DNA from: Halovulum dunhuangense | Lineage (GTDB): Bacteria; Pseudomonadota; Alphaproteobacteria; Rhodobacterales; Rhodobacteraceae | NCBI RefSeq assembly: GCF_013093415.1 | Contig: NZ_JABFBC010000001.1 | Location: 1,736,001-1,800,000 of the forward strand | DNA length: 64,000 nucleotides | Direction: 5' to 3' | Shown here: positions 24,692-30,151 of the stretch, in pieces | Layout: each line of letters begins with the position of its first letter | How positions within the stretch are numbered: position 1 is the first letter of the stretch | Made by a program: the position numbers and the translations under genes | Notes under the pieces: model-generated | What the model saw: the letters and a program-made list of their open reading frames with translations, nothing else | The model's database searches: none | What the model was told of the DNA's origin: nothing

Positions 24692-25858
24692 ATGCCCGTT
24701 CTGAACCGCATCGCCCAGTTCCAGGAAGAGATGACGGCGTGGCGCCAGCATATCCACGCCAATCCCGAGCTTCTGTTCGACACGGTCGAGACTGCCGCCT
24801 TCGTGGCCGCGCGGCTGCGCGAGTTCGGCGTGGACGAGGTGCATACCGGCATCGCGCGGAACGGCGTGGTGGGCATCCTGCGCGGCCAGGGCGAGGGGCC
24901 GGTGATCGGCCTGCGCGCCGACATGGACGCGCTTCCCATCGAAGAGGCGCGCGACCTGCCCTACCGGTCGCAGACCCCTGGCAAGATGCATGCCTGCGGC
25001 CATGACGGGCACACGACCATGCTTCTCGGGGCTGCGAAATACCTGGCCGAGACGCGGAATTTCAGCGGGTCCGTGGCGCTGATCTTCCAGCCCGCCGAAG
25101 AAGGCGGTGGCGGGGCGCGGGTCATGCTCGAGGAGGGGCTTCTCGAGCGTTTCGGCATCTCGCAGGTCTATGGCATGCACAACTGGCCCGGCCTGCCCGT
25201 GGGCCGGATCGAGATGAACCGTGGCGCGACGATGGCCGCGGCCGACCAGTTCGACATCCGCATCCGCGTGAACGGCGCCCATGCCGCCTGGCCGCACCTG
25301 TCGGCCGATCCCATCGTGACGGGGGCCGCGATCGTCCAGTCGCTGCAATCGGTCGTGGCGCGCAGCGTCGATCCGCACCAGCCGGTGGTGGTGTCCGTGA
25401 CCCAGTTCCAGGCCGGCAACACCCACAACGTGATCCCGGCCTCGGCGCATCTGAAGGGCACCGTGCGCACCATGGACGAGAGCGTGCGCAAGGACGTGGC
25501 CGCCCGCATCCGCCGCATCGCCGAAAGCGTGGCCGAGGCCCATGGCGCCGAGGTCGAGGTGGATTACCGCTGGGGCTATCCCGCCACCGTCAACGACGAC
25601 CGGGCTGTGAGCTTCGCGCTCGATGTCGCGGGCGAGGTGGTCGGAGCCGGGAACGCCTCCGAGGGGCATTCCCCGCAAATGGGGGCCGAGGATTTCGGCT
25701 ACATGCTTCAGAAGCGCCCTGGCGCCTATGTCTTCATCGGCAATGGCGACAGCGCGGGGCTGCACCATCCCGAATACGACTTCAACGACGCGGTCTCGCC
25801 GGTGGGCGCGTCCTTCCTTGCAAGGCTGGTCGAGCGCGCGCAGCCGGTCGCGCGCTAG
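24692..25858 (+). CDS. M20-family amidohydrolase (hippurate hydrolase-like)
   Basis: This 388-residue di-metal hydrolase is of the N-acyl-amino-acid/aminobenzoyl-glutamate type. Landmarks are RQHIHANPELLFD, GLRADMDALPI, the metal motif HACGHDGHTTMLLGAAKYLAE, QPAEEGGGGARVMLEEG, the dimerisation strand MNRGATMAAADQFDIRI and the C-terminal GAEDFGYMLQ. The likely role is release of amino acids from N-acyl conjugates, but the substrate is not determinable. The stop lies within the first copy of a tandem repeat shared with the convergent P450. Confidence 0.92.
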   Translation: MPVLNRIAQFQEEMTAWRQHIHANPELLFDTVETAAFVAARLREFGVDEVHTGIARNGVVGILRGQGEGPVIGLRADMDALPIEEARDLPYRSQTPGKMHACGHDGHTTMLLGAAKYLAETRNFSGSVALIFQPAEEGGGGARVMLEEGLLERFGISQVYGMHNWPGLPVGRIEMNRGATMAAADQFDIRIRVNGAHAAWPHLSADPIVTGAAIVQSLQSVVARSVDPHQPVVVSVTQFQAGNTHNVIPASAHLKGTVRTMDESVRKDVAARIRRIAESVAEAHGAEVEVDYRWGYPATVNDDRAVSFALDVAGEVVGAGNASEGHSPQMGAEDFGYMLQKRPGAYVFIGNGDSAGLHHPEYDFNDAVSPVGASFLARLVERAQPVAR

Positions 25859-25899
25859 GCGCGCGCCGGAAGCAGTCGCGCGCTAAGGCGCGCGCCGGA
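25847..25899. repeat. Tandem 24/25-bp repeat holding both convergent stop codons
   Basis: Two copies beginning GTCGCGCGCTA and ending GGCGCGCGCCGGA lie 28 bp apart (25847-25870 and 25875-25899) and differ by one inserted A. Copy 1 supplies the TAG of the peptidase. Copy 2, read on the minus strand, supplies the TAG of the P450. Each contains the self-complementary GGCGCGCGCC. Confidence 0.8.
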
Positions 25900-27067
25900 C
25901 CCGCAGCGCGGTCAGCCCGTGGAAATGGTAGCGGTCCGCATAGCGCGGGCCGCCCTCCAGGGAAAGGCGCGGCAGGCGCTGGAACAGGATCGGCAGCGCG
26001 ATCTCGATCTCGGCGCGGGCCAATGGCGCGCCCACGCAGAAATGGATGCCGGCGCCCAGCGACGTGTGCGGCCCTGCGGGCCGGGTGGGATCGAAGCGCG
26101 ATGGCTCGGGAAAGGCAGCCGCGTCGCGGTTGGCGGCGGCCAGCAGCAGCCCCACCTCGTCGCCGGGGGCGAAGCGGTGGCCGGCGATCTCGGCCTCCTC
26201 GGTGCAGAAGCGGGTGAACAGGTGCAGCGGCGGGTCGAAGCGCAGCACCTCCTCGCACAGGCGCGCGGGATCGCAGGACCGTGCATCCAGCCCCGCCTCC
26301 AGAAGCGCCTTCACGCCGTTGGCGATGCTGTGCACCGTCGCCTCGTGGCCCGCGTTCAACAGCAGGACCAGCGTCGCGATCATCTCGTCCTCGGTCAGCC
26401 GGTCGCCCGCGTCGCGCGCGGCGATCAGATCCGAGATCAGGTCGTCCCGTGGCGCAAGGCGCCGCGCGGCGATCACCTCGGCCAGGCAGTCCGAGAATTC
26501 GGCGGCCGCCGTGCCCGCCGCCCGCTCGACCGCGCCGTCGCGCCGCGCCTGGTACATCGCGACCATCGCGTGCGACCAGTCCAGAAGCTGCGGCGCCATT
26601 TCCTCGGGCACGCCGATCAGCCGGGCGATGACGCGCACCGGCAGGGGTTCCGCAAAGCCGGTCAACAGGTCGAAGGTCTCGCCCTCGATCCGGTCGATCA
26701 ACTCGTGCGCCAGCGTAGCGATCCCATCGCGCTGGGCCGCCACCGCGCGCGAGGTGAAGGCCGACAGCACCAGCTTGCGCAGCCGCGTATGCGCGGGTGG
26801 TTCCAGCGACAGAAGCGAGCGGTCCTCGAGCCGCTGGAACGGCTCCAGGTGCGGCGGCACCGGCTTGCGCCGCGCGGGCGGCACCTCGCGCCCGAAGCGG
26901 CGGTCGCGCAGAAGGCTTGAGACCAGCGCATGATCCCCCGTGACCGGAAAGCCGTACTCCTCCCAGACGGCAAGCGGGCCCAGGGCGCGCAGCCGCTCGT
27001 AGAACGGATAGGGGTCCTGGACGAACCCGTCCTCCCGCGGCGATTGCAGGATGCGGGGCAGGCTCAC
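25883..27067 (-). CDS. Cytochrome P450
   Basis: This 394-residue soluble bacterial P450 is a heme monooxygenase. The I-helix is LLLNAGHEATVHS, the K-helix ExxR is EEVLR, the meander region is FDPTRPAGPHTSLGAG, and the heme-thiolate loop is HFCVGAPLARAE. The GTG start at 27067 overlaps the TGA of the PLP-enzyme gene (GTGA), so translation is coupled. No ferredoxin or reductase is adjacent, so redox partners must be shared. The substrate is unknown. Coupling to a sulfur-amino-acid-type enzyme suggests oxidation of an amino-acid-derived product. Confidence 0.93.
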   Translation of the reverse strand: MSLPRILQSPREDGFVQDPYPFYERLRALGPLAVWEEYGFPVTGDHALVSSLLRDRRFGREVPPARRKPVPPHLEPFQRLEDRSLLSLEPPAHTRLRKLVLSAFTSRAVAAQRDGIATLAHELIDRIEGETFDLLTGFAEPLPVRVIARLIGVPEEMAPQLLDWSHAMVAMYQARRDGAVERAAGTAAAEFSDCLAEVIAARRLAPRDDLISDLIAARDAGDRLTEDEMIATLVLLLNAGHEATVHSIANGVKALLEAGLDARSCDPARLCEEVLRFDPPLHLFTRFCTEEAEIAGHRFAPGDEVGLLLAAANRDAAAFPEPSRFDPTRPAGPHTSLGAGIHFCVGAPLARAEIEIALPILFQRLPRLSLEGGPRYADRYHFHGLTALRVRRAP

Positions 27068-28224
27068 CCGGCGCGCTCCAGCGCCTGCGTCAGGTCCGCG
27101 ATCAGGTCGGCCGCATCCTCGATCCCCACCGACAGGCGCAGAAGCTGCGGCGGCACGATGGAATAGGGGCCCTCGACGGCCTTGCGGTGCTCGATCAGGC
27201 TCTCCACGCCGCCGAGCGAGGTCGCCGGGATGAACACCTCGGTGAAACGGGCGACGTCCCGCGCGATGCTGCCATCGCCCGTCACCATCAGCGACAGCAT
27301 GCCGCCGAAGCCGCCCTGCATCTGCGCCCGCGCGATGGCGTGGCCGGGATGGTCGGGCAGGCCGGGATAGAGCACCTGCGCCACGTTGGGGTGGCCCACC
27401 ATCGCATGGGCGATGGCCATGGCGTTCGACGACGCCTTTTCCCAGCGCAGGAACAGCGTGCGCAGGCCGCGGATCAGCAGCCACGCCTCGAAGGCGGCGA
27501 TCACGCTGCCCATCAGGCTGCGGACCTGGCGCAACTCGGCCGCCAGATCCCCGTCCACGGCCAGCGACAGCGCGCCCGCGGTCAGGTCGGAATGGCCGCC
27601 CATGTATTTCGTCGCCGAGTGAAACGCGACATCCGCGCCCAGCCGCAGCGCCTGCAGCGTGCAGGGCGGGGCGGCGGTGCAGTCGGCAAAGAGCAGCGCG
27701 CCGGCGTCATGGGCGGCCTTCGCCGCCGCCTCGATATCGACGATGTCCCAGTTCGGGTTTGCCGGCGTCTCGATCCACAGGATCCTGCTCTGGCCCGCGC
27801 GCAGCGCGGCCTTTGGCCCCTCGGGGTCGGCCTGGTCGTAGAAGGTGACCTCGATTCCGCGCCGTTCGGCCACCCGGTGCAGCCAGGTCTGGCCGCCGTG
27901 ATACATCACCCTGGGTGCCGCGACGTGATCGCCCGCGCGCAGCGTCTCGAGCATCGCCGCGATGGCCGCCATGCCCGAGGCGAACAGCAGCGTGCGCGCC
28001 GCACCGTCCAGGTCGGCGATGACCGCCTCGGCATGTTCGACCGTCGGGCCGCCGTCGCGGCCGTAGATGTAGCGCTGCCGGGGCGCGTAGTCCGCATCGC
28101 GCGCAAAGGTCGACGACAGGTCGATCGCCGGCGTCACCGATCCCGTCACCGGGTCGATGTGGCGCAGCGCCTGGGCGGCGCGGGTGGCGGGGGAAAGGGG
28201 GGCGTTGCGGCGGCTCTGGGTCAT
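27064..28224 (-). CDS. Cystathionine gamma-synthase/beta-lyase-family PLP enzyme
   Basis: This 386-residue fold-type I enzyme is of the trans-sulfuration (MetB/MetC/MetY) family. Visible motifs are YIYGRDGGPTVEHAEAVIADLDGA, FASGMAAIAA, the cofactor-ring region WIETPANPNWDIVDI, and the PLP lysine in FHSATKYMGGHSDL. SLGGVESLIEH is the C-terminal substrate loop. MetC-type beta-elimination (cystathionine to homocysteine) is the commonest activity of close look-alikes, but specificity cannot be decided by eye. The ATG at 28224 has AGGAAAG upstream. It is coupled to the P450. Confidence 0.88.
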   Translation of the reverse strand: MTQSRRNAPLSPATRAAQALRHIDPVTGSVTPAIDLSSTFARDADYAPRQRYIYGRDGGPTVEHAEAVIADLDGAARTLLFASGMAAIAAMLETLRAGDHVAAPRVMYHGGQTWLHRVAERRGIEVTFYDQADPEGPKAALRAGQSRILWIETPANPNWDIVDIEAAAKAAHDAGALLFADCTAAPPCTLQALRLGADVAFHSATKYMGGHSDLTAGALSLAVDGDLAAELRQVRSLMGSVIAAFEAWLLIRGLRTLFLRWEKASSNAMAIAHAMVGHPNVAQVLYPGLPDHPGHAIARAQMQGGFGGMLSLMVTGDGSIARDVARFTEVFIPATSLGGVESLIEHRKAVEGPYSIVPPQLLRLSVGIEDAADLIADLTQALERAG

Positions 28225-28330: not shown

Positions 28331-30151
28331 ATGAAGACCGGACGCATCGCCGTGCTGGCGGGAATGCTGGCTCTCGTGGCCGGCCTGTCGGTGCTGGCGG
28401 GCTGGCTCGGCCACCGTGCCGAGGTGATGCGCATGGAGCGCACCGGCAGCGCCACGCTGGAGCAGGCGGCCGACTGGCTGTCGGGGCAGGTGGACCGCTA
28501 CCGCTACCTGCCGCCCCTGATCGCGCGCCACCCGCAGGTGCTGGCGGCGTTGCAGGGCGGGGCGCCCGCGCGGGAAGAGGCGAACCGCATGCTCGAGACG
28601 GCCGCCGACGTGTCCGGCGCGCTGGACATCTACGTCATGGACGGCTCGGGCCTGACCATCGCCGCGTCCAACTGGCTGCTCGATCGCAGCTTCATCGGTC
28701 AGAACTTCGTCTGGCGGCCCTATTTCCAGCGCGCGATGACGGGGGTGCTGGGCTATTACCACGCGGTCGGCACGACGTCGAACCAGCGCGGCTTCTACTT
28801 CGCCCATCCGGTTCGCGATCCCGCGGGCGCCATCATCGGTGCGGTCGCGGTCAAGATCGACCTTGGCCGGATCGAGGATGGCTGGCGGGTGGACCGTGAC
28901 ACGCTGTTCTTCAGCGACGCGCGCGAGGTGATCTTTCTCTCCAGCCGGGCCGAACTGGTGCTGCGCGCCCTGCGCCCGGATGGGCCGGGGCCGATCCCGC
29001 CCGGGGCGGATGCGGCGCAATATGCCGGCGTGAACCCGGTGCCGCTCGGCGGGCTCGATCCGGGCGAGGTGCATGGCCGCAGGCTGTGGCAGATGTCGGG
29101 GCTGGCGGCGCTTCCCGCGCGGGCCTTGTGGCTGGAACAGCCGATCCCCACGCTGGGCCTGACCGGGAACATCCTGCTCGACATGGCGCCCGCGGAACGC
29201 CAGGCGCTGCTCTGGGCGTCACTCACGGCGGCCTGCGCCGCGCTGGTGATCCTTGGGGCAACGGTCGCGCTTGAGCGGCGCGCGGCGCTCAGGCGGCAGC
29301 TTTCGACCGAGGAAAGGGCCAAGGCCCGGCTCGAGGCAGAGGTGCGGGCGCGCACGGCGGCGCTTTCGGCGGCGGTGGCCCGGCTCGAGAACGAGGTGTC
29401 GGAACGGATCGCGACCGAGGCGCGGCTGCGCACCGTCCAGGACCAGCTGGTGCAGGCGGAAAAGCTGCGCGCGCTGGGCGCCTTGTCGGCGGGGATCAGC
29501 CATGAGCTGAACCAGCCGCTGACGGCGATCCAGACCCTGGCCGAGAACGGCGGCCTGTTGCTCGAACGCGGCGAGCAGGCGCGCGCGGCGACCAACCTGG
29601 GCCGCATCGCGGAACTTGCGCAGCGCGGCGGGCGCATCATCCGCAACCTGCGCGCCTTTGCCCGCAACGAGGCGGAACCCGCGACGGAAGTCGATCTCGT
29701 GGCCGTGGTCGGCGACGCGCTCGACATTCTCGAGCAGAGGCTCGCGCAGGCCGGGGTAGAGGTGGAGTGGGACGCGCCGCGCGCGCCGGTCATGGTGATC
29801 GGTGGCCGGGTACGCTTGCAGCAGGTGGTGGTGAACCTTCTGGGCAACGCCAGCGACGCGATGGAGGGGCAGCCGGCCCCGCGCCGCGTGGTGCTGTCGC
29901 TCGAGCGGGGGGCGGGACGCGTGCGGCTCAGGCTGCGCGATACCGGGCCGGGGCTGGCCGATCCGGGGCGGCTGTTCGATCCCTTCTACACCACGAAGCC
30001 CGTGGGCACCGGGCTGGGGCTGGGCCTGTCGATTTCCTACGGGATCGTCCAGAGCTTCGGCGGCGAGATCCGCGGCGAGAATGCCAGCGACGGCGGCGCG
30101 GTCTTTACCGTCGAACTGCCCGCCGTGGGCGGCGCGTCGGTGGCGGCATGA
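28331..30151 (+). CDS. C4-dicarboxylate-type sensor histidine kinase (DctB/DctS)
   Basis: This is a 606-residue membrane kinase. TM1 (about 7-27) and TM2 (about 291-312) frame a large periplasmic sensor domain of the double-PDC type (LDIYVMDGSGLTIAASNW and RGFYFAHPVRDP are typical DctB segments). A coiled coil follows (about 320-375), then the H-box ISHELNQPLTAIQT (His391), N-box VVVNLLGNASDAM, and G-boxes DTGPGLAD and GTGLGLGLSIS. It should sense C4-dicarboxylates or similar acids and phosphorylate the coupled regulator. The ATG overlap with that gene is 4 bp, and dctPQM follows. Confidence 0.92.
   Translation: MKTGRIAVLAGMLALVAGLSVLAGWLGHRAEVMRMERTGSATLEQAADWLSGQVDRYRYLPPLIARHPQVLAALQGGAPAREEANRMLETAADVSGALDIYVMDGSGLTIAASNWLLDRSFIGQNFVWRPYFQRAMTGVLGYYHAVGTTSNQRGFYFAHPVRDPAGAIIGAVAVKIDLGRIEDGWRVDRDTLFFSDAREVIFLSSRAELVLRALRPDGPGPIPPGADAAQYAGVNPVPLGGLDPGEVHGRRLWQMSGLAALPARALWLEQPIPTLGLTGNILLDMAPAERQALLWASLTAACAALVILGATVALERRAALRRQLSTEERAKARLEAEVRARTAALSAAVARLENEVSERIATEARLRTVQDQLVQAEKLRALGALSAGISHELNQPLTAIQTLAENGGLLLERGEQARAATNLGRIAELAQRGGRIIRNLRAFARNEAEPATEVDLVAVVGDALDILEQRLAQAGVEVEWDAPRAPVMVIGGRVRLQQVVVNLLGNASDAMEGQPAPRRVVLSLERGAGRVRLRLRDTGPGLADPGRLFDPFYTTKPVGTGLGLGLSISYGIVQSFGGEIRGENASDGGAVFTVELPAVGGASVAA

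Follow-up and report, generated by a model that had tools for sequence, protein, structure and literature searches.

In this study, the window (the whole analysed stretch of 64,000 nucleotides) was found to carry a coupled pair of genes on the minus strand. The first gene of the pair (27064..28224, minus strand; ATG at 28224, TGA at 27066-27064) encodes a PLP-dependent Cys/Met-metabolism enzyme of 386 aa (P0002), which matched Cys_Met_Meta_PP in Pfam (PF01053; 335.7 bits against a cut-off of 27), and the second (25883..27067, minus strand; GTG at 27067, end at 25883) encodes a CYP107-like cytochrome P450 of 394 aa, which matched p450 (PF00067; 80.7 bits against a cut-off of 22.8). The TGA stop of the former and the GTG start of the latter share the four nucleotides GTGA (27064..27067, minus strand), as the first-pass annotation had read from the letters alone, and its coordinates and both of its gene annotations proved right. 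Scans of the pair for a promoter and for a terminator showed no sign of either. Both enzymes come from known families, and the coupling of a CYP107-like P450 to a non-canonical clade of gamma-lyase type is, as far as we found, undescribed; a literature search for a joint pathway returned none, in agreement with the earlier statement that no described pathway joins the two families.

Divergent from the PLP gene lies a DctB-type sensor histidine kinase (28331..30151, plus strand) with dCache_1, HisKA and HATPase_c domains, a separate TRAP regulatory unit that continues into a regulator and then a TRAP transporter; the kinase with dctPQM is the conserved divergent neighbour in most loci. On the other side, an M20 amidohydrolase gene (24692..25858, plus strand; TIGR01891, 371.6 against a cut-off of 153.75) is a conserved neighbour within an M20-mazG-eno block, with its synteny kept in L042, L096, L117, L159 and L161. 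This gene was considered as a third member of the pathway and was not accepted, because it is convergent with the P450 and the block persists where the P450 is missing (L169). Neither a ferredoxin nor a ferredoxin reductase adjoins the pair, in line with the earlier remark that no redox partner is adjacent, and a small free-standing 2Fe-2S ferredoxin frame of 113 aa lies elsewhere in the genome (G000:C1:1509906).

The survey of genomes for adjacency that the first-pass annotation had proposed, for which extra loci were drawn from further genome contigs, disclosed adjacent P450 and PLP genes at 17 distinct Rhodobacteraceae loci, so that an adjacency unique to this strain, which would have told against its reading, is excluded. 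At 16 of these 17 loci the genes overlap by four nucleotides (ATGA, GTGA or TTGA, the TTG start of L089 being read from the sequence), while the remaining pair, L073, has an overlap of 13 nt; in L117, which is additional to the 17, a 1.7-kb insert parts the two genes. Since the NTGA overlap recurs across so many distinct pairs, whose P450s are 53-65% identical, it is not due to chance. We also observed that the pair stays intact with both flanks changed in at least six neighbourhoods, namely fabI-gpt/mazG-eno, dctMQP-RR-HK, GntR-cyclase-Dpp, alr-Dpp, a cytochrome-c/peptidase region in Amaricoccus and a sugar-ABC region. Outside the Rhodobacteraceae no pair was detected in a limited sample of 385 genomes of the class (P450 at E <= 1e-70).

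The two genes are very unequally distributed. Among the 296 family genomes sampled for presence, P450 matches were found in 240 at E <= 1e-40 and in about 211 at E <= 1e-90 (counted from the match table), and the PLP gene in 16 at E <= 1e-100, 15 of which fall in the clade of the window; of these 15 genes, eight adjoin the P450, three occur in genomes where both genes are present and unlinked, and four in genomes with no P450 match. The resulting co-occurrence table (11 genomes with both, 4 with the PLP gene only, 200 with the P450 only and 81 with neither; Fisher p = 1.0) indicates that the presence of one gene is independent of the presence of the other: linkage is conserved and dependence is not. 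This random co-occurrence is evidence against one obligate pathway. The earlier reading of the pair as one pathway is partly supported, in that the coupling is real and conserved; a single obligate pathway is not borne out, the P450 being far commoner, co-occurrence being at the level of chance and either gene occurring without the other, and the proposed sulfur- or gamma-substituted amino acid keeps the rank of a suggestion.

In loci lacking the PLP gene, the P450 stands alone or overlaps a gene for an EamA transporter instead, the latter preceding the P450 in the Tabrizicola/Rhodobacter group, most often with a 4-nt overlap, so the operon partner of the P450 differs between lineages. The individual overlaps of EamA with the P450 start in PLP-lacking genomes of the Tabrizicola/Rhodobacter type measure 1-4 nt (L058, L065, L067, L071, L099, L100, L107, L115 and L116). 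In a genome of the same genus as the window, G074, the P450 match lies in two pieces (L158:97-1310), so that a frameshift or an assembly error is suspected. A P450 with 46% identity was noticed in Sinorhizobium meliloti (L198:7959-11617), two genes from an O-acetylhomoserine aminocarboxypropyltransferase and on the opposite strand.

With reference to the gene trees, the coupled P450s are placed among the early branches, and 63 solo ones form one weakly supported group (82/29); the tree requires no fewer than four changes between the coupled and the solo state. The family clade of the PLP tree is supported at 100/98, and sub-clades of the P450 tree recur in it, for example (L163,(L162,L051)) and the window with L042, from which it follows that the two genes were inherited together. 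The recurrent arrangement fabI-gpt-PLP-P450-mazG-eno looks old, and in two genomes (L169 and L172) the PLP gene occupies that position with no P450. Most simply read, the pair is old and its PLP gene was lost repeatedly. A rival explanation of the pair is co-regulation without a shared metabolite, whereby two independent stress or scavenging enzymes would sit on an old promoter and the overlap would be kept since breaking it lowers expression of the P450. The random co-occurrence, the frequent loss of one partner, the equal conservation of the P450 without the PLP gene and the exchange of that partner for EamA all agree with this explanation; however, a pair that remains intact across at least six changed neighbourhoods exceeds what shared expression usually gives, and we regard co-regulation as a serious but rather unlikely account.

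The PLP enzyme has the fold-type I domain of PF01053 together with its catalytic Lys and its active-site Tyr, Asp and Arg, the corresponding positions (K206, Y108, D181 and R363) being invariant, and it carries Gly110, two residues past Tyr108, at what is presumably the site of the Cys of methionine gamma-lyase (MGL). Its signature is A334-T-S-L-G-G...E345-H-R347 (ATSLGG...EHRxxxEG across the clade); compared with canonical members, AESLGG has become ATSLGG, HRxxxEG stands in place of the MTHAS loop, and DNT reads DCT. The enzyme scored below every NCBIfam equivalog cut-off shown, including those for cystathionine gamma-synthase (PRK07811, 354.2 vs 513, its best score; TIGR02080, 270.6 vs 504.55) and methionine gamma-lyase (TIGR01328, 280.5 vs 549.7). 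The same genome harbors a separate MetZ (TIGR01325, 566.7 > 510.05) and a separate MetY (TIGR01326, 591.8 > 495.1), and in the larger tree the PLP enzyme lies apart from the tested canonical CGS, CGL, MetZ and MetY enzymes with support of 100/99. It is thus neither MetZ nor MetY and belongs to a non-canonical clade; its sequence does not tell a gamma-lyase from a gamma-synthase.

These data bear directly on the view that a housekeeping trans-sulfuration enzyme, a cystathionine synthase or lyase, precedes the P450 by happenstance. That the best NCBIfam score is for cystathionine gamma-synthase, at 354 bits, and that the genome has three full-length PF01053 genes only would speak for it, but the failed equivalog cut-offs, the missing MTHAS loop, the separate position in the tree and the absence of the PLP clade from some 95% of the family genomes sampled, with MetZ and MetY present, make it highly improbable. 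As a housekeeping methionine enzyme in particular, the candidate was rejected on the separate MetZ and MetY and the failed cut-offs, and the doubt that the first-pass annotation had raised against itself on this point is removed by those two genes and the different clade.

The PLP subfamily seems to comprise enzymes of gamma-lyase or gamma-exchange type that differ in substrate. Canavanine-gamma-lyase converts canavanine to homoserine and hydroxyguanidine. The side of the larger tree that includes the PLP enzyme also includes L237, a Sphingomonas protein whose gene adjoins one for a B3/4-domain protein, with an oxidoreductase gene coming after it. In the published canavanine-degradation operon a B3/4 gene lies directly in front (PMC10018355), and because L237 has the same kind of neighbour, the wider clade probably includes canavanine-gamma-lyase, a placement made from gene context. 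Beside the window pair and the inspected coupled loci, whose neighbours were partly scanned for the B3/4 domain, no B3/4 tRNA-editing gene was recognised.

Various other contexts were noticed in the clade of the PLP enzyme and in the wider clade. In four genomes of one genus, dmdA (DMSP demethylase; NF009133, 553.6 > 410) lies about 24-31 bp 5' of a PLP gene of the same clade (L170:7202-9517, also L208, L209 and L210, the PLP gene of L210 being broken, with two frames and an in-frame stop), and at L168:1-1566 the PLP gene lies 37 bp 3' of a DMSP-lyase-type cupin gene (PF16867, 53.1 > 27) that is cut by the contig end. GST genes flank the PLP genes of L175, L180, L187, L215 and L219, the flanking gene at L175 having a GSH-dependent disulfide-bond oxidoreductase as its best family match, and other relatives adjoin a methionine ABC transporter or Dpp transporters. 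On a Streptomyces nigrescens plasmid (L204:2014-7134) a relative lies 3' of genes resembling those for sbnA/sbnB diaminopropionate synthesis, perhaps within a natural-product cluster. The ATSLGG...EHRxxxEG clade is widespread in Alphaproteobacteria, where annotations mostly give its members no more than the generic name of PLP-dependent enzyme; several undescribed gamma-lyases are probably among them.

Organosulfur scavenging could be read from some of these contexts. Here the PLP enzyme would act on a thiol or sulfonium compound (it might attach methanethiol to an activated homoserine, or split an S-substituted homocysteine), with the P450 oxidising or dealkylating a sulfur compound. The same-clade genes just 3' of dmdA and of the cupin, the relatives beside the methionine ABC transporter and GST genes, and the position of the P450 next to cysG-cysI-cysH at 55 of 80 loci are consistent with it. 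Against this, the DMSP-linked PLP genes are not linked to the P450, the window genome yielded no dmdA orthologue but only a 25% GcvT-like match, which leaves a DMSP pathway unsupported there, and at the loci inspected a convergent Lrp gene intervenes between the P450 and cysG, because of which the P450 was rejected as a member of the sulfate-assimilation operon. The sulfur link of the pair is one of gene context only, and we consider organosulfur scavenging improbable.

The P450 is confidently predicted to take the P450 fold (pLDDT 91.6), and its nearest solved structure is 8yhn, CYP107P2 of Streptomyces avermitilis (44% identity, TM 0.91); that identity exceeds the 40% to a member by which CYP107 is delimited, and the formal name rests with the nomenclature committee. 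The heme-ligand motif GAGIHFCVG and the ExxR motif are retained, C344, the heme ligand in the FxxGxxxCxG region, is invariant, and at least 95% of 89 orthologues share C344, E273, R276 and G338/G340/H342. The Thr of the acid-alcohol pair in the I helix is usual in P450s and is not required for membership; here A243 takes its place. Together with N238, H282 and H381, A243 is invariant in the 89 orthologues, and these residues, placed in the pocket by sequence alignment, stand in for the customary hydrophobic residue, for Thr or for other residues, N238 of the I helix being hydrophobic in CYP164A2 and BioI. Among the same orthologues no residues distinguish solo from coupled P450s, so the reaction of the P450 seems to be independent of the lyase, and its substrate may be polar, conserved and common to both forms. 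The P450 is conserved across about 70% of the genera sampled from this family, which is ecologically important, and no function was found for it; the partners to which it is coupled, whether the non-canonical gamma-lyase or the EamA transporter, direct the search towards a small polar metabolite.

Taken together, our tentative preference, which we hold at a little short of an even chance, is for an ancient two-gene operon of the Rhodobacteraceae in which a single small polar gamma-hetero-substituted amino-acid-type metabolite would be the target of both enzymes, the P450 being constant and the lyase often lost. The conserved overlap at 16 of 17 loci, the varied flanks, the congruent sub-clades, the PLP enzyme being other than MetZ or MetY, its wider clade with L237 beside a B3/4 gene, the invariant N238, A243, H282 and H381 of the P450 and the EamA overlaps support it. 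The random co-occurrence, with four genomes having the PLP gene without a P450 match and three having both unlinked, counts against it, as does the lack of residues that set solo and coupled P450s apart. The operon itself, its conservation, the invariant active-site positions and the change of operon partner between lineages are established, whereas the common metabolite, the order of steps, the gamma-cleavage and the polar substrate we infer. The metabolite would bear a hetero-atom (S or O-N) at its gamma carbon and would be oxidised by the P450, supplied by a ferredoxin whose gene lies elsewhere. The PLP enzyme, as gamma-lyase or gamma-exchange enzyme, would cut the gamma bond, either in the substrate or in what the P450 makes of it, and the carbon skeleton would be regained as a product of homoserine or 2-oxobutyrate type. 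The constant step would be the P450, and the lyase an ancestral partner lost in most lineages; in one lineage the EamA transporter takes its place in the operon and would move the compound without cleaving it, and lyase-less lineages would have transport or nothing in its stead. It is conceivable, though we think it rather doubtful, that this P450, present in most of the family and joined in older lineages to a gamma-lyase, marks an unrecognised route for breaking down or detoxifying an environmental gamma-hetero-substituted amino acid, with a transporter having replaced the lyase in some lineages.

Comparatively, the P450 resembles CYP107P2 (8yhn) and the CYP107 group in the NAGHEAT motif of the I helix, and P450eryF likewise has Ala at the Thr place (A245; from PDB titles), whereas CYP107P2 lacks the H282 and H381 of the window P450. 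To our knowledge, CYP107P2 has no known PLP partner and its natural substrate is not established. The canavanine-gamma-lyase operons are alike through L237, which belongs to the same wider PLP clade with the same ATSLGG...EHRxxxEGP signature and would be a canavanine enzyme by its gene context; unlike those operons, the locus here has a P450 in place of the nitronate-monooxygenase-type enzyme, and at about 42% identity the window PLP enzyme has Glu at residue 341 where the B3/4-linked L237 has His. Cystathionine gamma-synthase and gamma-lyase, MetZ and MetY share the PF01053 fold and the catalytic Lys, Tyr and Arg, with the Thermobifida cystathionine gamma-lyase 8sf4 at 44% identity, but the PLP enzyme differs from them in its HRxxxEG, ATS and DCT (not the MTHAS loop, AES and DNT) and in its sub-equivalog scores.
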